Assembly (NCBI RefSeq): GCF_002836595.1
Contig: NZ_PJBB01000003.1
Location: forward strand, 2,479,001 to 2,543,000
Direction of reading: 5' to 3'
From: Tenacibaculum sp. Bg11-29
Lineage (GTDB): Bacteria; Bacteroidota; Bacteroidia; Flavobacteriales; Flavobacteriaceae
Length of the DNA: 64,000 bases
Positions 8,048 through 22,510 of the stretch are shown one piece after another (position 1 is the first letter of the stretch; the number at the start of each line of letters is the position of its first letter). A program made the position numbers and the translations under genes. Under the pieces are notes generated by a model. That model made no database searches. It was given only the letters and a program-made list of their open reading frames with translations, and was not told the DNA's origin.

Positions 8048-9652
8048 ATGACAGTTATGCAACAAAATGGGATTACGAAAGAAATTGATTTTAAGGGTTT
8101 TGAGTTAGAAAGGTATCATCAGGTTTTATCTGATGAAGCAAAGAATTTCTTGTTAGAGTTACATGATAAATTTAATGAAGAAAGATTAAATTTATTAAAA
8201 GAAAGAGAAAATCAGCAAGTCTATTTTGATGCTGATAACTATCCGAAGTTTCCAAAAGAGACAAAAGAGATTCGCGAAAGTGATTGGGTGTGTGCCGAGT
8301 TGCCAGAAGATTTATTAGATAGGAGAGTAGAAATAACAGGTCCTGTTGATAGAAAGATGGTAATAAACGCTTTGAATTCTGGAGCTAAAACTTTTATGGC
8401 AGATTTTGAAGATAGTAATTCACCAGGCATAATAAATCAGTTAAATGGGCAAATAAATTTGCGAGATGCTAATAACAGAACAATTTCTTTTTATAATGAG
8501 AAGAAAGATAAAACCTATCAATTAAATGAGCAAGTAGCTGTATTGTTAGTGCGTCCGAGAGGGTTGCATTTAAATGAAAAGCATTTTTTGGTAGATGGTG
8601 TTGCTATGTCGGGATCTTTGGTAGATTTTGGATTGTATTTTTTTCATAATATTAAAACACTGCAAGAAAGAGGTTCGGGAGCGTATTTCTATTTACCAAA
8701 ATTAGAACATTATAAGGAAGTTCGTTGGTGGAATGAAGTTTTTGTTTTTGCGCAAAACTATTTAGGTATTGCTCAAAAATCTATAAAAGCAACAGTTTTA
8801 ATTGAAACAATTACAGCAAGTTTTCAGTTAGATGAAATTATTTATGAATTAAGAGATCACATGGCGGGGTTAAATTGTGGTCGTTGGGATTATATTTTTT
8901 CATATATCAAAAAATTTAGAAATCATCCAAATTTTGTAGTACCTAATAGAGATCAGGTAACTATGAGTACTCCTTTTATGAAGTCGTATTCATTGAGAGT
9001 AGTTCAGCGTTGTCATAAACGCAGAGTGCATGCAATGGGAGGAATGGCAGCACAAATTCCAGTAAAAAATGATGATAAAGCAAATGCATTAGCGTTTGCA
9101 AAGGTGTTAAAAGATAAGGAGCAGGAAGTTAAAAACGGGCATGATGGTACTTGGGTAGCACATCCAGGAATGGTGGATTTAGCGATGAATGTATTTAACG
9201 AAAATATGACTACTAAAAATCAAATTCATGTAAGCAGAGCAGATGTTAATATTCAAGAAAAAGATTTAGTAGAAATGCCTAAAGGAACAATTACAGAAGA
9301 AGGAGTTCGTAAGAATATTAATGTAGGTATTTTGTATATAGAATCTTGGTTAAGAGGAAATGGAGCAGCAGCAATATATAATTTAATGGAAGATGCGGCA
9401 ACAGCAGAAATTTCTAGAACTCAAGTATGGCAGTGGTTGCATAAAAATATTGAGTTAGAAGACGGAAGAGTTTTTACGCAAGAAATGTATCAACAATTAA
9501 AAGAAGAAGAAATTGAAAAGATTAAAAAATATGTTGGAGATACTCAATATGTAAATGGAAAATTTGAGCTAGCAATTCAGTTATTTGATAAGTTGGTATT
9601 AAATAAGGAATTTGTGGAGTTTTTAACCTTACCAGCATATCAATACATTTAA
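8048..9652 (+). CDS. aceB: Malate synthase A
   Basis: A 534-residue protein of normal malate synthase A length. It condenses glyoxylate with acetyl-CoA to malate, the second step of the glyoxylate shunt, in the cytoplasm. Recognisable motifs include KTFMADFEDSNSP, VLLVRPRGLHLNEKHFLVDG, LIETITASFQLDEIIYELRDH (catalytic Glu/Asp region), GRWDYIFSYIKKF and HAMGGMAAQIP. The ATG follows a divergent regulatory region shared with the RamB-like regulator. Isocitrate lyase follows after 84 bases, so the two are likely co-transcribed with a hairpin in the gap. Confidence 0.95.
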   Translation: MTVMQQNGITKEIDFKGFELERYHQVLSDEAKNFLLELHDKFNEERLNLLKERENQQVYFDADNYPKFPKETKEIRESDWVCAELPEDLLDRRVEITGPVDRKMVINALNSGAKTFMADFEDSNSPGIINQLNGQINLRDANNRTISFYNEKKDKTYQLNEQVAVLLVRPRGLHLNEKHFLVDGVAMSGSLVDFGLYFFHNIKTLQERGSGAYFYLPKLEHYKEVRWWNEVFVFAQNYLGIAQKSIKATVLIETITASFQLDEIIYELRDHMAGLNCGRWDYIFSYIKKFRNHPNFVVPNRDQVTMSTPFMKSYSLRVVQRCHKRRVHAMGGMAAQIPVKNDDKANALAFAKVLKDKEQEVKNGHDGTWVAHPGMVDLAMNVFNENMTTKNQIHVSRADVNIQEKDLVEMPKGTITEEGVRKNINVGILYIESWLRGNGAAAIYNLMEDAATAEISRTQVWQWLHKNIELEDGRVFTQEMYQQLKEEEIEKIKKYVGDTQYVNGKFELAIQLFDKLVLNKEFVEFLTLPAYQYI

Positions 9653-9666
9653 AATATAAAATAAAA

Positions 9667-9696
9667 GCCCCTAAAATGCGGCAACATTTTAAGGGC
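9667..9696 (+). other. Intercistronic hairpin between aceB and aceA
   Basis: GCCCcTAAAATG-cggcaa-CATTTTAaGGGC forms a 12-base stem with one mismatch. No T tract follows, so it looks less like a terminator than like an mRNA-stabilising or processing hairpin that could set different levels of the two enzymes. Confidence 0.5.
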
Positions 9697-9736
9697 GAAG
9701 CTATCAGTAATTAATAACTTATTAAAAAACAAACTT

Positions 9737-11368
9737 ATGAAAAATTTAGCTCAAGGAAGTTATAATTCAGCATTAGAAACAGTAAAATCTTTAAAGCAAA
9801 AGTATGGAAGTACTTGGAGTGCGATTACTTCTGAAAATGCAGCAAGAATGATTGCTCAAAACCGTTTTAAAACAGGTTTAGACATTGCTAAATATACAGC
9901 AGCGATTATGAGAGAAGATATGACAGCTTACGATGCTGATTCTTCTAAATATACACAGTCATTAGGTTGTTGGCATGGGTTTGTGGCGCAACAAAAAATG
10001 ATTTCAGTTAAAAAGCATCATAAAACAACGAGTAAGAGGTATTTGTATCTGTCGGGATGGATGGTTGCAGCATTACGTTCTGAATTTGGACCATTGCCTG
10101 ATCAGTCAATGCATGAGAAAACAGCCGTTGCTTCATTAATTGAAGAGATTTATGATTTTTTGCGTCAAGCAGATGCTATTGAGTTGAACGATTTGTTTAG
10201 AAGATTAGAAGGTGGAGAAGATGTACAGGGGCAAATCGATAATTTTGAAACACACGTAGTGCCTATTATTGCAGATATAGATGCTGGATTTGGAAATGAA
10301 GAAGCTACATACTTGTTAGCAAAAAAAATGATTCAGGCAGGCGCTTGTGCTATTCAAATTGAAAATCAGGTGTCAGATGCAAAACAATGCGGACATCAAG
10401 ATGGAAAGGTAACTGTACCACATGAAGATTTTATAGCAAAACTAAATGCAATTAGGTACGCATTCTTAGAATTAGGAGTAGAAGAAGGTATTATTGTGGC
10501 AAGAACAGATTCTGAAGGAGCTGGTCTTACTCAGAAATTACCAGTAAGTCAAGAGCCAGGAGATTTAGCTTCTCAGTATTTAGCTTTTGTTGAGGCTGAA
10601 GAAATAGCTGTAGACGAAGCAAGTGAAAATGATGTTTTATTAAAGCGTAATGGAAAACTAGTACGCCCGGTAAGATTAGCAAATGGATTGTATAAATTTA
10701 GAGAAGGAACGAATATCGATCGTGTAGTTTTAGATTGTATAACAAGTCTTCAGAATGGCGCAGATTTATTATGGATTGAAACGCCAACTCCGCATGTTGG
10801 GCAAATAGCTCATATGGTGAATCGAGTAAAAGAGGTGGTTCCAAACGCAAAATTGGTGTATAATAATTCACCTTCATTTAACTGGACACTTAATTTCCGT
10901 AACCAAGCTTATGATGAAATGCTTTCTGAAGGTGAAAATATGACTGATTATGATAGAAATAATTTAATGGATGCTCAGTATGATGGTTCAGAACTATGTT
11001 ATCGTGCTGATGAAAAAATTAAGACTTTTCAAGTTGATGGAGCAAGAGAAGCTGGTATTTTTCATCATTTAATTACATTACCAACCTATCATACTACAGC
11101 GCTTCACATGAGTGACTTAACAGCAGGGTATTTTGGAGAAGAAGGAATGCTAGCGTATGTAAAAGGAGTACAGCGTCAAGAAATTCGTAAAGGAGTGTCA
11201 TGTGTAAAGCATCAAAGAATGGCCGGTTCTGATTTAGGAGATGATCATAAAACATTCTTTGCAGGTGATAATGCTTTAATAGCTGGAGGAACAAAAAATA
11301 CGTCTAGTCAGTTTGGTTCAAAGAAACAAGAAACTAGTGTAAAAGTTCAAAGAGGTATTGCAGTTTAA
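9737..11368 (+). CDS. aceA: Isocitrate lyase
   Basis: A 543-residue isocitrate lyase that splits isocitrate into glyoxylate and succinate. The active-site loop reads SDAKQCGHQDGKV, with the catalytic Cys near residue 218, followed by the ARTDSEGA strand. VPIIADIDAGFGNEEATYLL supplies the metal-binding Asp residues, and YNNSPSFNW is also conserved. It is the longer form (about 540 residues), with extra sequence between residues 270 and 320 compared with the 430-residue enteric enzyme. It lies second after aceB in a probable operon and is followed by two terminator-like hairpins. Confidence 0.95.
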   Translation: MKNLAQGSYNSALETVKSLKQKYGSTWSAITSENAARMIAQNRFKTGLDIAKYTAAIMREDMTAYDADSSKYTQSLGCWHGFVAQQKMISVKKHHKTTSKRYLYLSGWMVAALRSEFGPLPDQSMHEKTAVASLIEEIYDFLRQADAIELNDLFRRLEGGEDVQGQIDNFETHVVPIIADIDAGFGNEEATYLLAKKMIQAGACAIQIENQVSDAKQCGHQDGKVTVPHEDFIAKLNAIRYAFLELGVEEGIIVARTDSEGAGLTQKLPVSQEPGDLASQYLAFVEAEEIAVDEASENDVLLKRNGKLVRPVRLANGLYKFREGTNIDRVVLDCITSLQNGADLLWIETPTPHVGQIAHMVNRVKEVVPNAKLVYNNSPSFNWTLNFRNQAYDEMLSEGENMTDYDRNNLMDAQYDGSELCYRADEKIKTFQVDGAREAGIFHHLITLPTYHTTALHMSDLTAGYFGEEGMLAYVKGVQRQEIRKGVSCVKHQRMAGSDLGDDHKTFFAGDNALIAGGTKNTSSQFGSKKQETSVKVQRGIAV

Positions 11369-11401
11369 TAATATATTTTTAACAGAATGATGTATAATTA
11401 G

Positions 11402-11443
11402 TTCCTGCATTTGTTTGGTTTATTAAGCAGTGCGGGAATTTTT
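11402..11443 (+). terminator. Possible terminator after aceA
   Basis: TTCCTGCA ... TGCGGGAA, an 8-base stem with one wobble pair and a 22-base loop, followed by ATTTTT. It lies 33 bases after the aceA stop. Confidence 0.5.
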
Positions 11444-11520
11444 AAAAGATTGATTTTAATATCAATCAGTAAATAGTGGATTTATAAGTAGTTGTTTATA
11501 AATTTTTAGTAATTGAAGTT

Positions 11521-11552
11521 ACTTCCTTGATAATAATCAAGGAAGTTTTTTT
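11521..11552 (+). terminator. Strong Rho-independent terminator
   Basis: ACTTCCTTGA-taataa-TCAAGGAAGT is a perfect 10-base stem followed by seven T residues. It closes the aceBA transcription unit. The rest of the 11369-11698 gap holds nothing else I can identify. Confidence 0.85.
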
Positions 11553-11698
11553 ATGGTTATAAATATGATTAAATAAGGTTTTTGTAACAAAAAGACCTCA
11601 GTTGCTACATATAAATTATGCGATTCATGTTTTAATTAAAAAAAAATAACGAAATTGCTTAACCAAAAATTGTTCAACTAAAAAAAACACGAAGCAAC

Positions 11699-13045
11699 AT
11701 GTCAGATGATTTTGATTTATTAGAAACTAATTCAAACGAAAAAACTGAGAAAGTAGATGTTAATTGGGGTAAAACCATAGACACAATGAAGTCTAAATTA
11801 GCACATGAAGAAGATCCACAAACACGTCAAAAAATACTAAATGCAACATTAGATGATGTGGTGCATATGGCAGAAAAGGATAGAGAAACTCTTTTAGATG
11901 CTATTAAAGACCTAACAGATTATCAAGATGAAGTAGGAATTATATTCGAAAAATTTTCGACATTAAACGCCAAAGAACAAAAAGTAATTGACGATGCTCA
12001 AAAAGCGTTAGAACGTGCTAAAATTAAATTAGAAGACGCACAAAATAAACCAGATACTTGGTGGAATAACCTTTGGGGAAGAAAAAGCAAAATTAAAAAA
12101 GCTGAAGACGAACTAAAAATTGTTGAAAAAACAAGAGAAGGCGCGGATAATAAAGCAAAGGCAATGTTTCAAGAGCGTATTGAAAGCGCAGATGTTCAAA
12201 CATTGTTAAATGAATTATCGTATAAATCTCAAGCAGCTGTTACAAGATTAAAAAACCGTGAAGTAGAAATTAAAGAAGTAGAAGATAAACTACAAACGGC
12301 CATTGTAGAAGCAACAAAAAACCATACAAAAGCATTAGAGAAAAAGCAAGAAGTAGAAGGTAAGTTAGAAGAACAATATGTTTTATTAAAACAAGTACGA
12401 CAAGAGTTAGAAGAAACGGTAGACAAACAATCACCAGCCTATTCAGAAATAATAGGTAAAATGACAAAAGTAGAGCAGAAGGTAGAAGAATTAGAAGGAC
12501 TTAAAAACGCCTATACAACCTTAGCAGCCAGTAAAGATAGTTTTGTACACAAGCATAATTTAACCATAAAAGTATTAACATCTTTACGTAGTAACTTACA
12601 AACACATAGAGCAAAACTAAAATCAGACACCGAAGAGCGTTTAAAGTATTATGACGGATATGTGGTTGCGTTAAAAGCAAGAACAGATCAAGAATTTGCG
12701 GCAATTTTAGAACACTTAGGTGTAAAAACCGATGAACATATCGGAGCAACCTTAGCATCAATGCATTCAGCAAGTGCAAAAGCACGTCAAGAAATGATGG
12801 ATAACATTCCTGTACACGAAAAAGTTATGCAAGGAGTATATGGTAGCTATGCTGAGGCATTACATGAAATTAGAGAGAAAGATATTGATATTCAAAAAAA
12901 CTTTGCTGACCGCTATGGTATAGATATGAAAGAACTTTTTGAAGACTATTACAAAGCAGATAAAACGGTACCTTCTGGAAAAGATTCAGAACCAGAAGCT
13001 GCTCCAGCTCCAGAAGCAAATAATGACGATGACATGTTATCATAA
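11699..13045 (+). CDS. Long coiled-coil cytoplasmic protein of unknown function
   Basis: A 448-residue protein without signal peptide or membrane segment. Residues 75-330 are dominated by Glu/Lys/Ala heptad-like coiled coil (VEDKLQTAIVEATKNHTKAL, KVEQKVEELEGLK), broken by a Trp-rich turn near residue 120 (TWWNNLWGRK). The tail is acidic and Ala/Pro-rich (EPEAAPAPEANNDDDMLS). TelA-type or other membrane-stress coiled-coil proteins have a similar layout, but I see no diagnostic motif and do not claim homology. It opens a cluster containing a AAA+ ATPase (15474) and membrane proteins, so a remodelled scaffold or ATPase substrate is a reasonable hypothesis. Confidence 0.75.
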   Translation: MSDDFDLLETNSNEKTEKVDVNWGKTIDTMKSKLAHEEDPQTRQKILNATLDDVVHMAEKDRETLLDAIKDLTDYQDEVGIIFEKFSTLNAKEQKVIDDAQKALERAKIKLEDAQNKPDTWWNNLWGRKSKIKKAEDELKIVEKTREGADNKAKAMFQERIESADVQTLLNELSYKSQAAVTRLKNREVEIKEVEDKLQTAIVEATKNHTKALEKKQEVEGKLEEQYVLLKQVRQELEETVDKQSPAYSEIIGKMTKVEQKVEELEGLKNAYTTLAASKDSFVHKHNLTIKVLTSLRSNLQTHRAKLKSDTEERLKYYDGYVVALKARTDQEFAAILEHLGVKTDEHIGATLASMHSASAKARQEMMDNIPVHEKVMQGVYGSYAEALHEIREKDIDIQKNFADRYGIDMKELFEDYYKADKTVPSGKDSEPEAAPAPEANNDDDMLS

Positions 13046-13095
13046 AACGTTTTTGAAAGAGGTTTTGAAATTTAAAAAAGAGAAAAAATAATAAT

Positions 13096-13195
13096 GAGGG
13101 CGTTACCTTCTTTTTGAAAATAAAAGAAGGTCAGGCTTTCATTTCAATCTTTTTTCGAAAAAGAAAAAAGGATACCAATTCAATCCTTAACGCAA
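13096..13195. repeat. Dispersed two-hairpin intergenic element of the Bacteroidota type
   Basis: The order is GGGCGTTA, hairpin 1 (CCTTCTTTT ... AAAAGAAGG), the spacer TCAGGCTTTC, hairpin 2 (CTTTTTTC ... GAAAAAAG-like arms), GGATACC, then TTCAATCCTTAACGCA. From memory, the fixed boxes GGGCGTT, CGGGCTTTC and AGGATACC..TTCAATCC flanking two variable hairpins recur between genes of many Bacteroidota. It fills the gap between the coiled-coil gene and its 349-residue neighbour. Its function is unknown. Confidence 0.6.
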
Positions 13196-13246
13196 ATACA
13201 AGCAACAATAAAATAGCTATTAAACAAATATTGTTTACAAAATAAT

Positions 13247-14296
13247 ATGATTGTAACACCTTTAGATTCGGCAATATTAAATACAAAAGAACAATATGTT
13301 TTTTACCATAAAATGGTAGATTTTGCGCTGAAAGAATTAATAGTGAGTGTACAACAAAATGAGTTGTGCAGTTATCAAGAGCTAATCTTCTTCAAACAAT
13401 ATTCCGATTTGTTATTGTATTCAATAGAAGCAATGAGAGTTAAGTATATGTATGACGAAGAAGATAATATGAAAGTAGATTTAACCGATTCTGGCTTTCC
13501 AAATTATCTAGAATTTCGATATTTATACAACGATTTAGAGTTACGAAACGAGTATTTAGATAAATTACAAGACACAAGCATAATAAAAGAAGAGTTTTTA
13601 GATACACTATTGCGAAAAAAACAACCAATAAAAAAGAACGAACTCTTTAAAGCAGCATCAATTGTTTATTACAAATCTGTAAAACAGCAATACATATTTA
13701 ACAAATTTGTACAAGGAAAAATAATCGATGCACCAAAAAACAGCAATGCAAGTTTGTTAATAAGCTGGAGTTTTTACGATGTAAGTACAAATAGACCTTA
13801 TATATGTTTTATGTATTTCGATTACGATGGTAAACGAGTAGAAAAAGCAAAAGAAGAAATATATAAAGTACTAAAAGAAAGTGCCGATAGAGAAATGTCG
13901 TTAGATACAATGGCATATAATATCGACAGAAAATTGCCAGAAGTATATCCAAAACATATAAAAAGAATCGATTTAGGTCCTTTACATAATGTATTTGCAA
14001 AAGATGAAAATGAAATAACACATGCCGTTTTAGGTGGAATAGCAAAAAAAGAAATTCCTTTAGAGTCGTATGCATTGTCATTTAAAATAGATGAGGTTTT
14101 TTCTGGAGACACTTTTAAAGAAGGAAGTTTTTTTTCGAAACAAACCATGCAAAAATGGAATGCAGTAGAGCAGAAGAAATACGTTTTTGCTCCGCATAGA
14201 ATTATACAGATGCTACATAATAAAGTGCCAAATGTGCTTAATAATTTAGCAAAACCACCAATTCAAGTTGCAGAACTTAAAATAAGTAAGCAGTAA
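13247..14296 (+). CDS. Unknown protein of the AAA+ cluster, 349 aa
   Basis: A 349-residue soluble protein with no signal peptide or transmembrane segment. The first 130 residues look mostly alpha-helical. A more mixed region follows (LLISWSFYDVSTNRPYICFMYFDYDG near residues 170-195), then a conserved-looking DLGPLHNVFAKDENEITHAV segment and a C-terminal KYVFAPHRIIQMLHNKVPN. No family recognised. It follows the coiled-coil gene by 200 bases that are filled by a repeat element. The position suggests the two belong with the AAA+ ATPase encoded further on. Confidence 0.7.
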   Translation: MIVTPLDSAILNTKEQYVFYHKMVDFALKELIVSVQQNELCSYQELIFFKQYSDLLLYSIEAMRVKYMYDEEDNMKVDLTDSGFPNYLEFRYLYNDLELRNEYLDKLQDTSIIKEEFLDTLLRKKQPIKKNELFKAASIVYYKSVKQQYIFNKFVQGKIIDAPKNSNASLLISWSFYDVSTNRPYICFMYFDYDGKRVEKAKEEIYKVLKESADREMSLDTMAYNIDRKLPEVYPKHIKRIDLGPLHNVFAKDENEITHAVLGGIAKKEIPLESYALSFKIDEVFSGDTFKEGSFFSKQTMQKWNAVEQKKYVFAPHRIIQMLHNKVPNVLNNLAKPPIQVAELKISKQ

Positions 14297-14326
14297 AGTT
14301 AGTTTGAAAATAGATTTAGAAAAAAA

Positions 14327-15337
14327 ATGAAAATGAAGAGGTGCTTATATTTATTCTTAGCTAATTTATTTGTGCTAATTGCGCAAGGGCAAGAATTAAA
14401 AATTATAGAAAAAACAAAAATTAATTGGGATGATTATGCAGAAAGAGTTTATCTAGATAAAACAGAAAAAACATTTAAGAAGTCATATAAAAGATTAAAG
14501 AGTATTGATATTTTTAAAATTAAATATTTAAGTGATGGTCTTAAAATAGAAGCATTTGCAGCTATTCCAAAAAAAGAAAAAGACTATCCTGTTATTGTAT
14601 TTAATAGAGGGGGAAATAGAGATTTTAATGCTCTTAGCTTATTTGGAAACCGTAAAATGAAAGGGATTTCTGCAATAATGTATTTTTCTTATTTAGCAAG
14701 TAAGGGGTATGTTGTTGTTGGTTGTAATTATAGAGGTTGTGGTAATAGCGAAGGAAAAGATGAATTTGGTGGAAAGGATGTTAATGATGTTATTGCTTTA
14801 TTAGATGTTGTAGAAGAGTTGCCTAATACAGATACTAACAGAATAGGAATGTTTGGTTGGAGTAGAGGAGGTATGATGGCATATAGAGCGTTAACAAAAA
14901 CCAAAAAAATTAAAACAGCTGTTATTGGAGGAGCCGTATCTAATAGTTTTAAAAGTATTATTGCTAGACCAGAGATGGAAACTAGGGTTTTAGCAGAATT
15001 AGTTCCTAATTATTATAAAAATAAAGAAGTAGAACTTACGAAACGTTCTGCTGTAAAATGGGTAGATCAATTTCCTACTAATGTACCTATTTTTTTAATG
15101 CATGGAAGTGCAGACTGGAATGTAAGAGCAAATCAAAGTTTAGAGTTGGCATTAGAGTTTCAGAAATATAAAATACCATATCGTTTAAAGATATATGAAG
15201 GAGGAAACCACGGTATATCTCAATTTGGAAAAGAAAAGTTTAAAGATATAATAGCATGGTTTGATAAATATTTAAAAAATGATGCGCCTATACCTAACAC
15301 CGCACTTATAAACCCTTTTGAAAATAGAAAGAATTAA
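14327..15337 (+). CDS. Secreted alpha/beta hydrolase (S9/prolyl oligopeptidase-like)
   Basis: A 336-residue protein starting with a signal peptide (CLYLFLANLFVLIAQG). The fold is clear: oxyanion segment VIVFNRGGNRDF, nucleophile elbow GWSRGGMMAYRAL (catalytic Ser), acid in HGSADWNVRANQS and catalytic His in YEGGNHGISQFG. Such enzymes hydrolyse peptide or ester bonds in the periplasm or at the surface; the substrate is unknown. It starts 30 bases after the preceding gene but is unlike its cytoplasmic neighbours, and a palindromic repeat follows it. It may therefore have been inserted into the AAA+ cluster. ATG 14333 is an alternative start. Confidence 0.85.
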   Translation: MKMKRCLYLFLANLFVLIAQGQELKIIEKTKINWDDYAERVYLDKTEKTFKKSYKRLKSIDIFKIKYLSDGLKIEAFAAIPKKEKDYPVIVFNRGGNRDFNALSLFGNRKMKGISAIMYFSYLASKGYVVVGCNYRGCGNSEGKDEFGGKDVNDVIALLDVVEELPNTDTNRIGMFGWSRGGMMAYRALTKTKKIKTAVIGGAVSNSFKSIIARPEMETRVLAELVPNYYKNKEVELTKRSAVKWVDQFPTNVPIFLMHGSADWNVRANQSLELALEFQKYKIPYRLKIYEGGNHGISQFGKEKFKDIIAWFDKYLKNDAPIPNTALINPFENRKN

Positions 15338-15380
15338 TTTTTTAAATAAGATTAATAGTTGTGAAAAATAAAATAAATAA

Positions 15381-15456
15381 CGTCATCGCGAGAAGAAGAA
15401 AATAACAAGAGTATCCTTTTAAAATAAGAGATTACTTCATTTCATTCGTAATGACA
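15381..15456. repeat. Palindromic dispersed repeat (CGTCATYRCGA type)
   Basis: CGTCATCGCGAGA at the left and TTCGTAATGACAG at the right are imperfect inverted repeats of each other, with AAGAGTATCC / AGAGATTACTTC-like sequence inside. From memory, repeats of the form CGTCATTGCGAG...TTCGTAATGACG, with inner arms around GCAATCTC/GAGATTGC, are spread through many Bacteroidota and other genomes. This copy appears degenerate. It lies between the hydrolase and the AAA+ gene. Confidence 0.6.
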
Positions 15457-15473
15457 GATAACATTAAAATACT

Positions 15474-17438
15474 ATGGAACACAATTCAACTTTTCCAATA
15501 AAACAGAATGAACTTGATATGCTTCGAGATGAAGCAAGCGGATACTTAAAAAGTATTCAATGGGAGCAAGGACAACGAGCAAAAAATAAAAATAAAGACA
15601 CCAAAGACGACTCTATATTATTATATTTATCTAGAGCAAACAACGGAAGTTCAACAACAGAAGTAACTTCGGTATCTAAAACAATATTAGCATTAAAAAA
15701 ACGATTATTACCAGATTCTATCGCAATACCTGTGTATTTAAATCAAACACTGTACGCAGTTCAAGAAGGGCTTACCTTAGGTATTTGGATAAAAGATAGT
15801 TACTATGATGCATCAGGATTATCGAGCTTACGAGAACGAATAGCTGCGTTAGATGCAAATGGAAAACGAGAATTTGAAAGCAAAATGCAAACTGCAACAG
15901 CCTTTCAATTGTTTGCTACATCTTATAAAATAGTACACGACTTAAAACCGCATGCATCTGACGATTTATCAGTAATGAAACAGAAATTCGCAGGAATTCC
16001 TGAGGTTTCATTTATATCTCCATTAAAAGGAATAGCATGTAGTTTGTTTTATTATGAAAAATATTTAGGACATCCAGATATTATAAAATCAGATAAAGAC
16101 GTTATCGATTTTACGGTAGTGTATTTTGAAGCTTTAATTGATGAAATTCAATTGCGAAAAAGTAGTTTAGAATATACAGAGACGATTGTAGATAGAACCT
16201 ATAAATTAGAGAAGAGCGAATTTGCTATTTCTGGTTGGGAAAATGCTTTTTCAGGAACAGCAAAGAGTATCGAATTTAATAAAATTAAGTTTGAACAAAT
16301 TGTTGGTAATAGAGATGCAAAACACTTTGCACGTAGGTTAACAGAACGAATGTTAAGTTACGATTTTGAAGCAAAGAAAAATCCGTTTCAAGAATTGGGA
16401 GGGTTTATGCCTGTGTTTATGGGGTATGGAATTCCAGGTACAGGAAAATCGATGTTAATTGCCGCAATAGCAACACGATTAAAAGAACATAGTGATAATT
16501 TAGACATTCCGTTTTTATTTCACCCAATGCCAGACACCTTAATCTCTACATTTCAAGGAGGATCGGCAGAAAAAATGGTAGCATGGATGAAGCCAATGCA
16601 AGATCCATCAAAATTAATATTTGCCCCGATTGACGATGCTGAAAATAATTTACAAGAACGTACAGCACAAGGAGTATCAGCCGGAGTAAAAGAAGTTATC
16701 GGAGTTTTCTTACGATATACCGAAGGAGCATACGCTGTAAATTACGGGAATAGTTCTATTGGTTTATTCACAAATTTACCTGAAATGCTCGATAAAGCAG
16801 TTATTTCTCGTGTGCAAGGGCGGTTTAAAATTGACGGAGCAAGAACGGAGCATGACTTTTTAGATCAAGATCATTTATGGTGGCGTAAGTTGCAAAAAAC
16901 AATGCCCGATTTTGTAAATATGACAAGCCCTTCGGATTATGAGTATTTGAAAGATCAAGGATTGGCAAAAAGTATGGGAGATATTTTAAACTCTGTAGAA
17001 AAACCATCTGAGGCACGAGTTTTAGAAGCATATGATAAAGCAGAAAAACAACATAAAACGAATGATCATTTGTTTTATGCAAGTTTGTATAAAGAAATTC
17101 AGAATATATTTCCGTTTTTCTCATCAAGAGATGTTCGTAACATTCAGTCAGCAATATCATTACGATTAACCGATTTCGATTTAGAACAAGATTGGTTTGA
17201 TAAACCAGAAATTTATTTTAAGCAGAATTACGAAACAAAGTTTAATATGCTACAAGAATTAATGAAATCGAATATGAAAGGATTGAATTTTTCTGAAGTA
17301 AGAAGACAAGAAGTAGTTCGATATTTAGACAACGTAGCAACAATTGCTGATACCGATTTTAAACGAAAAGTAGATGCTAGAGTAAACCAAATGAATATTG
17401 ATTTAGAGGCTAGGGGACAGTTTAATGAAAGAAGCTAG
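15474..17438 (+). CDS. Classical-type AAA+ ATPase with large N-terminal domain
   Basis: A 654-residue protein. Residues 1-300 are an unrecognised, mostly helical domain. The ATPase core has Walker A GYGIPGTGKSM (about residues 317-327), a Walker B-like LIFAPIDDAEN (about 381-391, with DD where DE is usual), a sensor-1 region IGLFTNLPEMLD (about 428-439) and a likely arginine finger in ISRVQGRF. Sensor 1 followed by LDKAVISR is typical of FtsH/Vps4-like AAA proteins. Such ATPases unfold or remodel protein assemblies. The following gene starts three bases after its stop. The partner is probably one of the cluster products, for example the 11699 coiled-coil protein (inferred). Confidence 0.85.
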   Translation: MEHNSTFPIKQNELDMLRDEASGYLKSIQWEQGQRAKNKNKDTKDDSILLYLSRANNGSSTTEVTSVSKTILALKKRLLPDSIAIPVYLNQTLYAVQEGLTLGIWIKDSYYDASGLSSLRERIAALDANGKREFESKMQTATAFQLFATSYKIVHDLKPHASDDLSVMKQKFAGIPEVSFISPLKGIACSLFYYEKYLGHPDIIKSDKDVIDFTVVYFEALIDEIQLRKSSLEYTETIVDRTYKLEKSEFAISGWENAFSGTAKSIEFNKIKFEQIVGNRDAKHFARRLTERMLSYDFEAKKNPFQELGGFMPVFMGYGIPGTGKSMLIAAIATRLKEHSDNLDIPFLFHPMPDTLISTFQGGSAEKMVAWMKPMQDPSKLIFAPIDDAENNLQERTAQGVSAGVKEVIGVFLRYTEGAYAVNYGNSSIGLFTNLPEMLDKAVISRVQGRFKIDGARTEHDFLDQDHLWWRKLQKTMPDFVNMTSPSDYEYLKDQGLAKSMGDILNSVEKPSEARVLEAYDKAEKQHKTNDHLFYASLYKEIQNIFPFFSSRDVRNIQSAISLRLTDFDLEQDWFDKPEIYFKQNYETKFNMLQELMKSNMKGLNFSEVRRQEVVRYLDNVATIADTDFKRKVDARVNQMNIDLEARGQFNERS

Positions 17439-17441
17439 TAA

Positions 17442-17939
17442 ATGGCTACTATAAAGGAGGTGAAAACGATAATTGAGAATTCTACTATAGATTTAAATGA
17501 AATAGTAAAAAGGAATTGTTGGAATGTTTTATCAGATAATTATAAATATTTTTTACATGAAATTTCGAACGAAAGAGGTAACGTTGTAAAAAAGAAAAAA
17601 CTGAAATTAATAAAAGAGGTGTCGGAAGATTTATCTAAAATTTATTTTGATATATATGATTTGAACTTTCATATTTATGCTTCAAAAAAAGATGAAACAA
17701 TTATCGTAATTAAGTATTTTCTTAAGAAATTTTTAGATGAAGAGTTTTTTGAGGAGGTTAAAAATAATAAATCAATGATTCATTCTAAATTAAATATTCC
17801 TTTTTATAGGAAACATCAAAACCAAAAATTTGATGTTAATAGGGAGTTAGGAGGTTCAAGATATGAATGGAATTCTTTTTTTAGTAAATTATTATTTAAA
17901 TTAAGATATATAAACAGAGAAACTTTTATTAAAGAGTAA
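17442..17939 (+). CDS. Unknown protein of the AAA+ cluster, 165 aa
   Basis: A 165-residue, Lys- and aromatic-rich soluble protein (begins MATIKEVKTIIENSTIDL; contains FDIYDLNFHIYASKKDETI and ELGGSRYEWNSFFSKLLFK). No family recognised, and no membrane segment. It lies three bases after the AAA+ stop and seven bases before the next gene, so translational coupling is likely. An AGGAGG stretch just inside the coding sequence (17455) is probably chance. Confidence 0.65.
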   Translation: MATIKEVKTIIENSTIDLNEIVKRNCWNVLSDNYKYFLHEISNERGNVVKKKKLKLIKEVSEDLSKIYFDIYDLNFHIYASKKDETIIVIKYFLKKFLDEEFFEEVKNNKSMIHSKLNIPFYRKHQNQKFDVNRELGGSRYEWNSFFSKLLFKLRYINRETFIKE

Positions 17940-17946
17940 AATTATA

Positions 17947-19182
17947 ATGCAAAAATTAAAAGAAGCCAATTTATATAGAAGTGAGTTAATTCCTGTAAGC
18001 GGAAAGTTAGTAGAACGTTATAATAAATGCTTAATTAAATTAGGACTTACGGTAACAAAACTAGAATCATTTTCTATTGACGGACTCGGTTGGAGCCCTG
18101 AAATATCTGAAGAAAAAGAAGATATTCATTATTTAAATAATGGAGATGCAAACTCGCATTGTATTATTATTACACCATTTCAAAAAGGATTACCAATATA
18201 CAATCCGTTTCATTCTTTTGATAAAGACTTAATGAAGTTGATTTTTAAAATACATGAAACTAAAATTCAAAATATTACGAGAGATTCAGCAATTTGTGTC
18301 GATTTTGATCAGAATATAGATGTTTTTTACGAACCACTAGATGTTTTAAGATATACAGATGTTGTAATTCGTTTTCGACTAATAGATAATTTAGACAAAG
18401 TAAAAGAAGAGCAATTACAATTAATAGTAAACTTTAATAAAGATAATAACTTTATAGATGAAAAGATTCATCAACAATTATTAGATTCAGCTAATAAATA
18501 TGGGGATTTAAGAAATAGAGATTTAAACTTAGAAGATATTGTTTTTACATCAGACTCTTTTTATACAAAAGCATTTGGTGGTATCTATTTATTGCGTAAT
18601 TTTCTAACACCTATTTTAATCTTCGAAGAAAAAGAAGCTTATAAAGAAGCTATAAATGATACAGTACATGATGTTTTAATGTATCATATTTCTCATTCAG
18701 AATTAATGGAGAAATTGAGAGATCATTTAATAACAGAGTGTGATTTAAAAGAAGAAAGAACGTTTAATCGTTATGAGCGAATACAAAAATATTTATTTTC
18801 AAAACATTTAGAAGAAGTAAACCACCCAATAAAAGATATTTTAGAAGACAATATGTTATTTAAAAGTTATTTGAATAAATTAAATATTGAAACTCGTAAA
18901 AAAGTAATGAGTGTAGATAGATATTTAGATAAACTGAAAATTAACAACGAAACAAAAATTAAAGATATTATTGATAACAGTGTGTATTTTTCTTTGCATA
19001 AACCACACTCATCATTAAGGTCAAATCATCAAGATTTAATTTGGAAACTATTGGTTAACATTTCACCAAACGATGTGTTGTTTTTATATTGGTATGATAA
19101 AGAAGAGTTTTACAAACAATATTTAAATTGGGATGCATCTATGCAAGATTGGGTAATTGAAACAATTAATAAAAATATATAA
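17947..19182 (+). CDS. Unknown protein of the AAA+ cluster, 411 aa
   Basis: A 411-residue soluble protein with no recognised domain. The N-terminal third is mixed alpha/beta (SIDGLGWSPEISEEKEDIHY, SHCIIITPFQKGLPIYNPFH). The remainder is mainly helical, with an HISHSELMEKLRDHLITE segment and a C-terminal FLYWYDKEEFYKQYLNWDAS. It lies seven bases after the 165-residue gene and three bases before the next. Tight packing with an ATPase and membrane genes suggests a structural or adaptor role; this is inferred from context only. Confidence 0.7.
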   Translation: MQKLKEANLYRSELIPVSGKLVERYNKCLIKLGLTVTKLESFSIDGLGWSPEISEEKEDIHYLNNGDANSHCIIITPFQKGLPIYNPFHSFDKDLMKLIFKIHETKIQNITRDSAICVDFDQNIDVFYEPLDVLRYTDVVIRFRLIDNLDKVKEEQLQLIVNFNKDNNFIDEKIHQQLLDSANKYGDLRNRDLNLEDIVFTSDSFYTKAFGGIYLLRNFLTPILIFEEKEAYKEAINDTVHDVLMYHISHSELMEKLRDHLITECDLKEERTFNRYERIQKYLFSKHLEEVNHPIKDILEDNMLFKSYLNKLNIETRKKVMSVDRYLDKLKINNETKIKDIIDNSVYFSLHKPHSSLRSNHQDLIWKLLVNISPNDVLFLYWYDKEEFYKQYLNWDASMQDWVIETINKNI

Positions 19183-19185
19183 ATT

Positions 19186-19722
19186 ATGACACCAGAGCTT
19201 ATTGTATTTATTGCCGCCATATTATTTGGTATTTTAGTTTGTTGGAGAGAATCTAAAGGAAATAAACTATATCGATTTGTAAATAAAATTTTGAATTCGA
19301 AAGAATTGCAAATGAAAGCATCAAATAAAAAAGGATTTGTGTATGAACAAACTTTTTTATTAAGATTGGTTTTTATCGCAACATTCTATTTAATGAGTGT
19401 GGTTGTTATTCAGTTTTTAATACCAATAACATTGGCAACGATATCTGTTTTTATATTTATGATTGTAGGTACATTAATAGGTGTTTATGTGGCTGATTTA
19501 ATTTTTAAATCATCAAAAATAATTGAAGAGCAATCTGATTCTTTAGAGAATATAGTGCATGATTCAATAGAAAAAGGAAAAGATTTTATTGAAGATTTAA
19601 GAGGAGAATCAGATACTACATCAAGCAGTGTTGAAAACGATGAAGCACAAAAAAAAGTAGAAAAACCAAAAGCGCAAGAAAAAAGTGCTAGAGAAAGATT
19701 AAAAGATAAAGGGTTGTTGTAA
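19186..19722 (+). CDS. Membrane protein of the AAA+ cluster, 178 aa
   Basis: A 178-residue protein with a hydrophobic N-terminus (LIVFIAAILFGILVCW) and two further membrane segments around residues 60-105 (IATFYLMSVVVIQFLIPITL and VFIFMIVGTLIGVYVADLIF). A charged cytoplasmic tail follows that is rich in Glu, Lys and Ala, ending KSARERLKDKGLL. No named family. It starts three bases after the preceding stop. It could anchor the ATPase or its partners at the inner membrane (inferred). Confidence 0.7.
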   Translation: MTPELIVFIAAILFGILVCWRESKGNKLYRFVNKILNSKELQMKASNKKGFVYEQTFLLRLVFIATFYLMSVVVIQFLIPITLATISVFIFMIVGTLIGVYVADLIFKSSKIIEEQSDSLENIVHDSIEKGKDFIEDLRGESDTTSSSVENDEAQKKVEKPKAQEKSARERLKDKGLL

Positions 19723-19816
19723 TTAAGAAATAACAACAAAATAATCTTTCAGATTAAAATAAATAAACATTTTGCTATAACTTTACTAAAAGTGATGCAA
19801 TAATAAAATAAAGAGT

Positions 19817-21511
19817 ATGATTAAAAAATACTGGCAAAAAGGAGGGAAACAAAAGAGGAGAGTTATATTGTTTTCTTTTATATTACTGATTGCGTTATTC
19901 GTTTTAAGAGACGATTACCAACCAGCATTATTATTTATTAGAAAATACATTTTTATAATTCTGTTAAGTTTTTGTGTGTTGTTTTTCGGATTGAGAAATT
20001 TTAGAAAATCAGCAAGTTCAGGAAAAAGGGTTTTTATTTTAGGAATGTTAATTTTATTTTTTGGTGCTTTGTATGGTATTGGATGGCATTATAAAATGTA
20101 CGATTATATGAGAACCTATAATGTTTTTAATAATTTAAAACGCATTCAAATAACCGAATTGCCTTTAACACAAAATGAAAGAATACAACCTTTACGTAAT
20201 ATTTTTTCAATGGCAAATGAATCAGTCGGAGAAACAAAAGATATTTCTTTACCGCATTTAGTTAGAGTAGATTCAGTTAATAAATGGACGATGGCAATTC
20301 AGCCCACCGAAAAATATGTTTGGCAAGGAATTAGTGACAATACAGAAGAAGTTTTTTCAGTATCAAGTACAACACCATTTCCTCGGTTTTCAAGTGAAAA
20401 CAGAATTTCAGTAACCTTTTCAATAGGAGAATCTTTAAAGTTTAGTCGTAATACATACAATGCAGTTGTACAACGATTCAGTATTTTTCAGTTATTTAAC
20501 CTTGAGCCAAGCGATACTTTTTATATGAAAAACGATAAAGGAGCATGGGTGCAAGTAGTAAGTTTAATAAAGTGGAAAGGCTTTTTGTTTCCGTACCCAA
20601 GTTTTGGAGGCGTAATGGTTATTGAGAACGGAGAACATGATTTTGGAGATTATGTAGAACGTATTTTATTAGGAAAAGGAACTTATATTTCTCCTGAGGA
20701 AATGAAAAATTATCCATATTTAACAAGGCAAAATACGTTATCAGAAAAAGTATCACGTTTACAAGCAGAGTCTTTAAAGTTTTTAGGAGGATTTAGCGAT
20801 CCATTACCTTGGAATATGAAAACAGCGGTAAAAATACCAAACCTACCAGATGATCAAAATCAGCAACCGTTTGTAACGGATTTTGATTTTTCTGAAACAA
20901 ATTTAAACGCTTATAGTGGTTTATACCATTGGTTTGGGTTAGAACCTGTAGGAGATGAAAGAACAAGTTTAACTTACAGTGTTTTTGTACCTGCTGATGG
21001 TACTAATAAGTTTTATTATTACGACCATGCATCAAAAAAACAAGGTTATGCAGGTGTTTCGGCAATGCCTTTAAAAGTAATAGAATCACGTAAAGAATTT
21101 GATTGGTCGGTAAACAAACCAGTAGAATTTAGACCTTATATAAAAAATATAGCAGGTAAGAAAAGATTGTTTTTTATTGGTACTGTTTCAGCAATTAGAG
21201 AAGGTTCAAATAAATTTGATGGCTCAGCAACGCCAGATTTAGCGTTAATTGATAGTGAGTACAGAGACGTCGTTTGGATTGATGCAAAACACCCAAGTAA
21301 ATGGAACGCTTCGGTGTATGAGCAGTTAGGTGAAGCTTGGAAAGAAAGTGAAACTTCGAACGACTATTTTAAAAATATTAGCTTTGCTAAAGAAATAGAA
21401 CATATTAAAATAGATTCTATAGCGTTGGCTTCTAAACAAAAAATTGAAGCAGAAAAAATTAATAAACTCCAAAAACAAATAGATTCTATTAAAGAAAATT
21501 CGAATAACTAG
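19817..21511 (+). CDS. Large membrane-anchored protein of the AAA+ cluster, 564 aa
   Basis: The N-terminus has three hydrophobic segments (residues 18-30, 43-60 and 71-90; for example VFILGMLILFFGALYGIGW). After this comes a domain of about 420 residues, rich in beta-type segments, that probably lies outside the cytoplasm, and then a C-terminal coiled coil (KQKIEAEKINKLQKQIDSIK). No family recognised. It is the last gene of the cluster, 94 bases after the 178-residue membrane protein, and ends at a strong bidirectional terminator. The size and topology suggest a membrane-spanning or sensor component. Confidence 0.75.
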   Translation: MIKKYWQKGGKQKRRVILFSFILLIALFVLRDDYQPALLFIRKYIFIILLSFCVLFFGLRNFRKSASSGKRVFILGMLILFFGALYGIGWHYKMYDYMRTYNVFNNLKRIQITELPLTQNERIQPLRNIFSMANESVGETKDISLPHLVRVDSVNKWTMAIQPTEKYVWQGISDNTEEVFSVSSTTPFPRFSSENRISVTFSIGESLKFSRNTYNAVVQRFSIFQLFNLEPSDTFYMKNDKGAWVQVVSLIKWKGFLFPYPSFGGVMVIENGEHDFGDYVERILLGKGTYISPEEMKNYPYLTRQNTLSEKVSRLQAESLKFLGGFSDPLPWNMKTAVKIPNLPDDQNQQPFVTDFDFSETNLNAYSGLYHWFGLEPVGDERTSLTYSVFVPADGTNKFYYYDHASKKQGYAGVSAMPLKVIESRKEFDWSVNKPVEFRPYIKNIAGKKRLFFIGTVSAIREGSNKFDGSATPDLALIDSEYRDVVWIDAKHPSKWNASVYEQLGEAWKESETSNDYFKNISFAKEIEHIKIDSIALASKQKIEAEKINKLQKQIDSIKENSNN

Positions 21512-21530
21512 AATTTTCTTTAATATCTTT

Positions 21531-21566
21531 AAAAATAGGATAAGTCATATGACTTATCCTATTTTT
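21531..21566. terminator. Bidirectional terminator between convergent genes
   Basis: A perfect 36-base palindrome, AAAAATAGGATAAGTCAT and its complement, with A and T flanks serves both strands. The stop codon of the minus-strand MarR-GNAT gene (21554-21556) lies inside the stem. Confidence 0.9.
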
Positions 21567-22510
21567 AATTCCATTTTTATATCAGAACGCTCATAAGGGC
21601 AGTTTTTTTCAACAGGAATTTCTATAAAACCATATTTTTTATAAATATAAATTGCATTTTCAAGTTTGGTATTTGAATATAGCGTAAGTTTTTTAAAACT
21701 ATTTTCTTTAGCAAAATCAATACATTTTTGCATAAGATGCTGTCCTATTTTGTAGCCCCTATGTTTTGGCGATACGGCCATTTTTGTTAATTCAAAAACA
21801 CCACTATTTATTGGCATTAAAGCAACTGTACCAACAACTTCATTATTAATTTTCGCAAAGAATATGTGTCCACCTTTATCGATAATGTATTTATCAGGGT
21901 TACTTAATACTTCTTCATCATAAGCCTCAACATAAAAAAAGCTTTTTAACCACTCTATATTTAAATTATAAAAATGAGAAGCATATTCATTTTTATAATT
22001 TGTAATTTCTAAGGCATTCATAATTTTAGTATTCATTTGTATATGTTCTGTAATAGCTTTGCTAAAAGATTTTTTGTTAAATTTTTCTTCTAGTATATTT
22101 AAAGTTTCAACTAAAGAGTTTGAAGATATTTTGGTATATTCTTTAATTATAAATTCAATACCATTCCAAATAGGAGTTACATTTTTAACTAATGTTTTCC
22201 CTTTTTTAGAAAGTATTATAACTTTTTTACGCTTATCAACTTTATCAATCTTTAAAAGGATTAGTTCTTTTTTTAAAAGCTTATTAATAGCTTGTGTTGT
22301 GGCAGGTTGAGAAATATGTAAACTATTTGTGATCTCAGTATTTGTTACGCCATTTTTACTTTTTATAATTCTAAAAGCAGGAAATAGATAAGGGTCAAAA
22401 TCAATATTAAATGTATTATATACTAATTGAGTTTCTCGCATCATATATTCACTAACTCTTTTTAAACGAGAACCAATACCAATTTCTCCTAAATTCTTTA
22501 ATGCATCCAT
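21554..22510 (-). CDS. MarR-type regulator fused to GNAT acetyltransferase
   Basis: A 318-residue fusion. Residues 30-140 form a MarR winged helix (TNTEITNSLHISQPATTQAI, then wing LLKIDKVDKRKKVIILSKKG). Residues 165-318 form a GNAT domain with the acetyl-CoA loop MAVSPKHRGYKIGQHLMQKC and the C-terminal YKKYGFIEIPVEKN. MarR-GNAT fusions are a known two-domain architecture, usually autoregulated; the acetylated substrate is unknown here. The upstream region carries ATAAGTA-type inverted repeats that would suit autorepression. It is convergent with the 564-residue membrane gene. Confidence 0.9.
   Translation of the reverse strand: MDALKNLGEIGIGSRLKRVSEYMMRETQLVYNTFNIDFDPYLFPAFRIIKSKNGVTNTEITNSLHISQPATTQAINKLLKKELILLKIDKVDKRKKVIILSKKGKTLVKNVTPIWNGIEFIIKEYTKISSNSLVETLNILEEKFNKKSFSKAITEHIQMNTKIMNALEITNYKNEYASHFYNLNIEWLKSFFYVEAYDEEVLSNPDKYIIDKGGHIFFAKINNEVVGTVALMPINSGVFELTKMAVSPKHRGYKIGQHLMQKCIDFAKENSFKKLTLYSNTKLENAIYIYKKYGFIEIPVEKNCPYERSDIKMELKIG

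Follow-up and report, generated by a model that had tools for sequence, protein, structure and literature searches.

In AAA translocases, an aromatic pore loop goes together with polypeptide threading. Among the described systems closest to the one reported here, the endosomal sorting complexes required for transport (ESCRT) join such an ATPase (Vps4 or CdvC) to coiled-coil ESCRT-III partners at the membrane, VCP-like/CDC48 proteins are the nearest solved relatives of its AAA domain, and the phage-shock proteins PspA and Vipp1 place a coiled coil at the membrane beside an ATPase. Here we describe a six-gene set in a 64,000-nucleotide stretch of the Tenacibaculum sp. Bg11-29 genome (contig NZ_PJBB01000003.1, positions 2,479,001 to 2,543,000; the window). 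The set encodes a soluble coiled-coil protein of 448 amino acids (CC448; 11699–13045), a soluble protein of 349 (G349; 13247–14296), a classical AAA ATPase of 654 with an N-terminal region of about 265 (AAA654; 15474–17438), a DUF6638 family protein of 411 (D411; 17947–19182) and two membrane proteins of 178 and 564 amino acids (M178, 19186–19722; M564, 19817–21511), all on the + strand. We consider it a good candidate for a new machine of the cell envelope; as far as our searches go, the system is undescribed in the literature.

Comparison with known membrane-remodelling systems

AAA654 resembles the ESCRT ATPases in being a classical AAA protein with an aromatic pore loop, although that loop is not specific to ESCRT, and its weak similarity to them does not extend beyond the AAA domain (CdvC, E = 0.0035; Vps4, E = 0.0017). 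The set also shares with ESCRT a link to the membrane and a coiled-coil partner, CC448, in which a variable linker precedes a conserved C-terminal end, an arrangement likened here to the MIT-interacting motifs of ESCRT-III. It differs in its dedicated extra partners (DUF6638 and G349), in its predicted periplasmic protein, and in that no MIT domain or ESCRT-III similarity was detected by sequence. The N-terminal region of AAA654 had no Pfam MIT match at E ≤ 1 and its profile matched no PDB chain at that threshold, and the CC448 profile found six PDB sequences at E ≤ 1 by sequence search, none of them ESCRT-III, PspA or Vipp1. From its closest VCP-like/CDC48 relative of known structure (5vc7, E = 5e-10), AAA654 differs by having a single AAA domain, an N-terminal region with no sequence counterpart among PDB chains and a DD Walker B motif. 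The likeness to phage-shock systems is one of analogy, since none of the eight proteins of the gene unit matched a PspA/IM30 family of Pfam or NCBIfam at E ≤ 1. An earlier interpretation, made from the sequence alone (the sequence-only reading), had compared the logic of the region to ESCRT/Vps4 or phage-shock systems; that comparison stands as an analogy, with weak AAA-domain similarity to CdvC and Vps4, and does not extend to ESCRT-III, PspA or MIT similarity by sequence.

Six genes are kept together in Flavobacteriaceae

We compared 80 loci related to the AAA gene from named genomes, the best 80 of 211 candidates and biased to close relatives (85–99% identity), of which 64 had complete flanks of 10 kb on each side. 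The closest named relative of the window ATPase was that of Tenacibaculum ovolyticum (98–99%). Genes for CC448, G349 and AAA were each present in 64/64 full-flank loci and those for D411, M178 and M564 each in 62/64, with identical order and strand in all 62 loci that hold the six. The two exceptions (L026 and L033) carry large insertions after the AAA gene, and the locus ends within the D411 match; in L033, D411–M178–M564 are visible past the insertion in an apparently corresponding stretch of the genome. The inserted material in these two Tenacibaculum loci, in the slot between AAA and D411, comprises a gene for a protein of 1490–1618 amino acids, the start of which we take to resemble CheB-type methylesterases, and two opposite-strand genes of about 300 codons.

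The core consists of the six genes for CC448, G349, AAA654, D411, M178 and M564, and the two other genes of the unit are passengers. One encodes an S9-type alpha/beta hydrolase (14327–15337, + strand; PF00326) and was found in 0/80 related loci; the other encodes the 165-amino-acid S165 (17442–17939, + strand) in the variable slot and was found in 1/80 (L013, T. ovolyticum). The sequence-only reading had counted seven genes; its six core members hold up, the 165-amino-acid one drops out, and the S9 hydrolase lies in the region although that reading had left it aside. Of the 74 loci with both AAA and D411, 56 have a NUDIX gene between the two, with PF00293 in both members scanned, and other inserts in some loci include 23S-IVP four-helix, RDD, GIY-YIG and PemK/MazF genes.

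We then used one evenly drawn set of 249 Flavobacteriaceae genomes, each at least 90% complete, for searches with five core proteins: AAA (E ≤ 1e-20), M564 (1e-10), D411 (1e-5), G349 (1e-5) and CC448 (1e-20). AAA, D411, G349 and CC448 were each found in 78/249 genomes, with identical genome lists, and M564 in 79/249, namely the same 78 and one further genome, G327. About one third of the sampled family, many members of which are marine polysaccharide degraders, holds the set, and does so in a nearly all-or-nothing manner. In G275 the set is split on one 2.95-Mb contig over three sites (CC–G–AAA, D411–M178 and M564), with all parts kept. Some core genes lie on separate contigs in G306, G431 and G385, perhaps through breaks in the assembly; G332 carries an additional, incomplete M564 copy; and one in-frame stop falls within the aligned stretch in 7/78 rows for G349 and in two rows for M564.

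That these are separate genes with separate tasks, mere lasting neighbours, is highly improbable in our judgement. Unrelated passengers do share the unit, and G327 keeps M564 and an adjacent NUDIX gene, on a 19.5-kb stretch, without the other surveyed core genes. This pair looks like a remnant, because CC448, G349, AAA and D411 give no match in the G327 genome. Against mere neighbourhood stand the identical phyletic lists of four genes (78/249), the retention of the genes in G275 despite their dispersal, and the repetition of a four-gene order in another phylum, described below. We conclude that the six genes almost certainly form one functional unit. The sequence-only reading had proposed one multigene system centred on an AAA ATPase and including membrane partners, and had named in advance what would speak against it, a lack of co-occurrence in other genomes or membership of known, unrelated pathways; the six-gene order in 62/64 full-flank loci agrees with the proposal, which survived this test. 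A gene resembling those of ABC-F-type ATPases adjoins both the G327 pair and the CC–G–AAA part of G275 (L111, L112), which suggests a common ancestral location. The dispersed M564 of G275 (L114) has genes for malate synthase and isocitrate lyase some 4 kb away.

Outside this survey the set is narrowly distributed in its phylum. Within the genus of the window, the ATPase was found in 14/36 genomes, some of them incomplete and the window's own included; in the order's other families, one of 23 genomes had a marginal match to AAA (E = 9.7e-4, 29%). In a 392-genome sample of Bacteroidota the ATPase was found in six, all Flavobacteriaceae (E ≤ 1e-20), and PF20343, the Pfam model of DUF6638, in 3/148 genomes, again all Flavobacteriaceae, and in 0/14 control genomes. 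Checked across Bacteroidota, as the sequence-only reading had suggested, co-occurrence and gene order are conserved in Flavobacteriaceae, and no other family of the 392-genome sample showed the ATPase; a four-gene core reappears in Pseudomonadota.

An apparently vertically kept system

For 45 loci that also hold a neighbouring ABC-F gene, presumably ettA, we compared protein distances with those of AAA. The correlations were 0.83 for D411, 0.80 for M564, 0.74 for CC448, 0.70 for G349 and 0.46 for M178, with 0.58 for the neighbouring ABC-F protein; all of these values, including the last two, were reached by 0/999 permutations. The mean pairwise identity of AAA in these loci was 88%.

These data bear on the idea that the set is an anti-phage or conflict system pairing an ATPase with an effector, which we regard as improbable. 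AAA654 matches IetA weakly (E = 1.6e-5), CC448 weakly matches JetC, a MukB-like coiled coil (E = 6e-5), and small mobile-type genes are inserted into the unit in some genomes. However, the second component of IetAS or Jet is absent among the eight unit proteins, a JetC match can be obtained from any long coiled coil, each positive genome of the 249-genome survey has a single AAA match, and the AAA protein is well conserved, with distances that track those of the neighbouring ABC-F protein. In pattern scans, which reach close relatives only, neither the window AAA nor the Sinorhizobium meliloti AAA had a relative in 50,697 phage records, and neither the window AAA nor the S. meliloti DUF6638 protein had one in viral contigs. 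In its inheritance the set resembles a cellular system that is passed down vertically and sometimes lost, rather than a mobile defence island. We rejected an identity with IetAS, since the IetA likeness of AAA654 is weak and no IetS match occurs in the eight unit proteins. We also took as background the PADLOC matches of CC448 with JetC and DruC (E = 0.18) and of M178 with a 2TM effector model (E = 0.03), as well as weak PADLOC and PHROGs matches of the AAA domain and a PHROGs match of S165 (E = 0.0099).

The ATPase and its predicted soluble and membrane partners

AAA654 matches PF00004 at 35.7 bits (cut-off 21.2). Its Walker A motif GYGIPGTGKS (16422–16451), pore loop 1 FQGGS (16551–16565; F/Y-Q-G in relatives), sensor 1 and arginine-finger patterns recur in 80/80 loci and in 5/5 further sequences, four from Pseudomonadota and one from Flavobacteriaceae at 73%. 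For sensor 1, a pattern of just three letters, stronger evidence comes from a 15-row alignment in which N434, R446 and R450 are invariant; Walker A and the pore loop are invariant there too, save that the pore-loop aromatic alternates between F and Y. The Walker B motif FAPIDD (16620–16637) has D rather than E as its second acid, and this IDD is found in all 85 AAA sequences (80/80 and 5/5). The sequence-only reading had called the protein a classical AAA ATPase with an unusual DD Walker B. In a profile alignment the F/Y-Q-G loop coincides with KYYGQS and KWVGES, the Y/W-x-G pore loops of an archaeal VCP-like ATPase. The aromatic loop favours a putative role in polypeptide threading.

By hydropathy, CC448, G349, AAA654 and D411 have no hydrophobic segments and are predicted to be soluble, whereas M178 has three such segments and M564 has three followed by a remainder of 474 amino acids; the earlier description of a soluble coiled coil with partners, a three-segment membrane protein and a membrane-anchored M564 agrees with these predictions. 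Hydropathy and positive charges predict that the tail of M178 is cytosolic and that the bulk of M564 (474 amino acids), a domain followed by a C-terminal helix, is periplasmic. Two of the proteins end in conserved tails, each preceded by a poorly conserved stretch; counts are based on the 80 loci, some of which are cut short, with sequences outside 85–120% of the expected length dropped. CC448 ends in DD[LM]L[SGN] (13028–13042) in 78/78 sequences, all from Flavobacteriaceae, and SAR[EDQ]RLKDKG (19684–19719) stands near the end of M178 in 71/72.

D411 belongs to DUF6638 (PF20343; 114 bits, cut-off 27), so that the claim that no component carries a nameable signature falls for this protein and stands in so far as the family is uncharacterised; we found no mention of DUF6638 in open-access full-text literature. 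Its model is confident (predicted local distance difference test score (pLDDT) 91.1, predicted template modelling score 0.84), and neither Foldseek nor a profile search of the PDB gave a confident or usable match. PDB profile searches with G349 and M564 also returned no usable match, and the AlphaFold model of M564 is poor (pLDDT 40); its transmembrane part has a sub-threshold match to 7TMR-DISM (E = 0.001). Several candidate identities were rejected. A Csm6 match of G349 (E = 0.036) was lost with a broader profile and taken as noise. CC448 looks TelA-like by eye; profile comparison gave probabilities of 0.1% with one TelA sequence and 0.6% with five, and PF05816 had no match in CC448 at E ≤ 1 or in two Pseudomonadota homologues at E ≤ 0.5. 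M564 as a relative of DUF2333 (PF10095) gave probabilities of 0.3% and 0.4% in profile comparisons, the latter by hhalign against two DUF2333 sequences, with no Pfam match at E ≤ 1.

A four-gene core in Pseudomonadota

In a plasmid collection, ten records contain DUF6638, and these ten also rank highest among the 56 records with an AAA match. We inspected five stretches (L098 to L102), one of them, a second Vibrio (L100), by annotation only. BLAST recovered the order CC–G–AAA–DUF6638 in Vibrio vulnificus (L098), Sinorhizobium (L099), Shinella (L101) and Rhizobium leguminosarum (L102); in the Sinorhizobium stretch an endonuclease-domain gene and an IS4 transposase separate AAA from DUF6638. That record is labelled pSymB, and we assume from its length and genes that it is chromosomal. 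The window proteins were compared with those of Vibrio and Sinorhizobium in searches of only ten sequences, in which small E-values come easily: CC448 matched the second gene upstream of AAA at 2e-7 and 4e-5, respectively, with 2e-9 and 3e-5 for a Flavobacteriaceae CC profile; G349 gave 8.5e-13 and 9e-16, AAA654 1e-67 and 3e-53, and D411 6e-10 and 9e-31. The two DUF6638 proteins score 199 (Vibrio) and 256 bits (Sinorhizobium) against PF20343. The four-gene core survives across the two phyla at roughly 20–30% identity, and in the literature searched we found no description of the Pseudomonadota loci as a system.

What follows the core differs. No relative of M178 or M564 was detected among the Vibrio and Sinorhizobium proteins compared. 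In Sinorhizobium and Shinella the next gene after DUF6638 encodes a DUF2333 protein, which in Sinorhizobium has two hydrophobic segments and a 342-amino-acid remainder; in Vibrio the gene after DUF6638 is mfd. In the open-access literature searched, DUF2333 is mentioned in passing, beside a type VI secretion system hcp locus, and called uncharacterised. Relatives of the Vibrio DUF6638 protein that carry names are mostly Rhodobacterales (best 120 of 245). The Sinorhizobium relative of G349 has 1596 relatives; among the 120 listed, the named ones come from Rhizobiaceae-type genera and none has a Pfam domain. Through this linkage DUF6638, in part DUF2333, and the nameless families of CC448, G349, M178 and M564 gain a first functional handle.

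A proposed machine at the inner membrane

Our preferred reading, to which we give an even chance, is a threading AAA machine, seated at the inner membrane, which remodels an assembly of coiled coil and membrane that is coupled to a periplasmic domain. The six core genes would specify one ATP-driven machine, in which the AAA654 ring would engage the exposed C-terminal tails of CC448 and M178, the former an acidic DD[LM]L[SGN] end and the latter a basic SARERLKDKG end. Threading of these tails through the pore may then dismantle or re-set the assembly. D411 and G349 would be dedicated adaptors that link AAA654 to CC448, and M564 would transmit the action to or from the periplasm, a part that the DUF2333 protein, not detectably related, may take in two alphaproteobacteria. 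The slot between AAA and D411 would accept passengers, mostly a NUDIX enzyme. More tentatively, the set may represent a new class of bacterial envelope remodeller, analogous to ESCRT/Vps4 and built from unrelated parts, in which tail peptides let a dedicated AAA ATPase recycle a coiled-coil scaffold with DUF6638 and G349 as adaptors and M564 or DUF2333 as exchangeable periplasmic modules. The set offers a test for AAA-driven coiled-coil remodelling at bacterial membranes beyond the PspA/Vipp1 type.

Several observations weigh against the threading machine. The CC448 tail motif is not visible in the Pseudomonadota homologues, so recognition of this tail cannot be universal. DUF2333 was not found in the Rhizobium (L102) or Vibrio (L098) stretch, and a periplasmic partner is therefore evident in only part of the loci. 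The role given to D411 is a guess, because its fold has no confident match. The distance correlation of M178 with AAA is below that of the neighbouring ABC-F protein, and M564 with its NUDIX neighbour stands without the other surveyed core genes in G327. A weak hairpin of five pairs lies within the unit (13096–13110 in the hairpin scan) and speaks against taking a single transcript for granted. Finally, a Walker B with DD instead of DE might hydrolyse ATP slowly, which would make AAA654 a switch rather than a motor.

The last point leads to a regulatory alternative, which we consider somewhat unlikely: the DD-Walker-B ATPase would be a slow ATP switch that senses the envelope through M564 or DUF2333 and frees D411, G349 or CC448 as soluble signals. 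The invariance of the DD in all AAA sequences examined and the large, conserved, predicted periplasmic part of M564 are in its favour. We take choX of S. meliloti to be SMc02737, an assignment that a literature search did not confirm. With shmR as SMc02726 (PMC8343143), counting genes from shmR to choX would make SMc02733 the AAA gene, as a lead only. A fragment bound by ChvI lies inside SMc02733 (PMC3687685), a weak lead for regulation that depends on this gene counting. Against the switch, the ATPase retains its aromatic pore loop and both positions of the arginine fingers, in keeping with threading, and the core proteins contain no DNA-binding or signalling domain above family cut-offs. The threading machine remains our preferred reading.

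Organization of the unit and neighbouring genes

Terminator-like hairpins bracket the unit on the + strand, one between aceA and CC448 (11521–11546; 11-pair stem with a T tail) and one closing it (21529–21568; 18-pair stem with a T-rich tail), and eight + strand open reading frames lie between them, smaller overlapping ones on the opposite strand being left aside. The hairpin scan gave eight terminator-like sites, against 3.7 expected. Frame coordinates and the short gaps across 15474–19722 (3, 7 and 3 nucleotides) are as the sequence-only reading gave them. Three of the eight products carry Pfam names over curated cut-offs (the S9-type hydrolase, the AAA domain of AAA654 and DUF6638 in D411); G349 has neither a Pfam nor an NCBIfam family, and no product matched NCBIfam above cut-off. 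The Bacteroidota −33/−7 promoter consensus pattern has no occurrence on the + strand of 10901–22200 and seven in the whole window, and sigma-70-like sites are no more frequent than in shuffled sequence.

A 120-amino-acid four-helix gene of the 23S-rRNA-intervening-sequence type occurs at differing places in the unit across genomes (L017, L018, L023 and others); PF05635 was found in the one member scanned, and its cluster has 25 open reading frames over the 80 loci, not all verified inside the unit. Four Polaribacter loci (L032, L039, L044 and L048) have a PemK/MazF-like gene (PF02452 in L032) and a small gene, presumably antitoxin-like, between CC448 and G349. Upstream of the unit (8048–11368) lie malate synthase and isocitrate lyase genes, both of which are also present in 11/80 related loci. 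Downstream, on the − strand (21554–22510), is a gene for a 318-amino-acid protein that we take to resemble a MarR regulator fused to a GNAT acetyltransferase; the 80 loci hold 56 open reading frames of its cluster, many of which lie close to the unit's downstream end.

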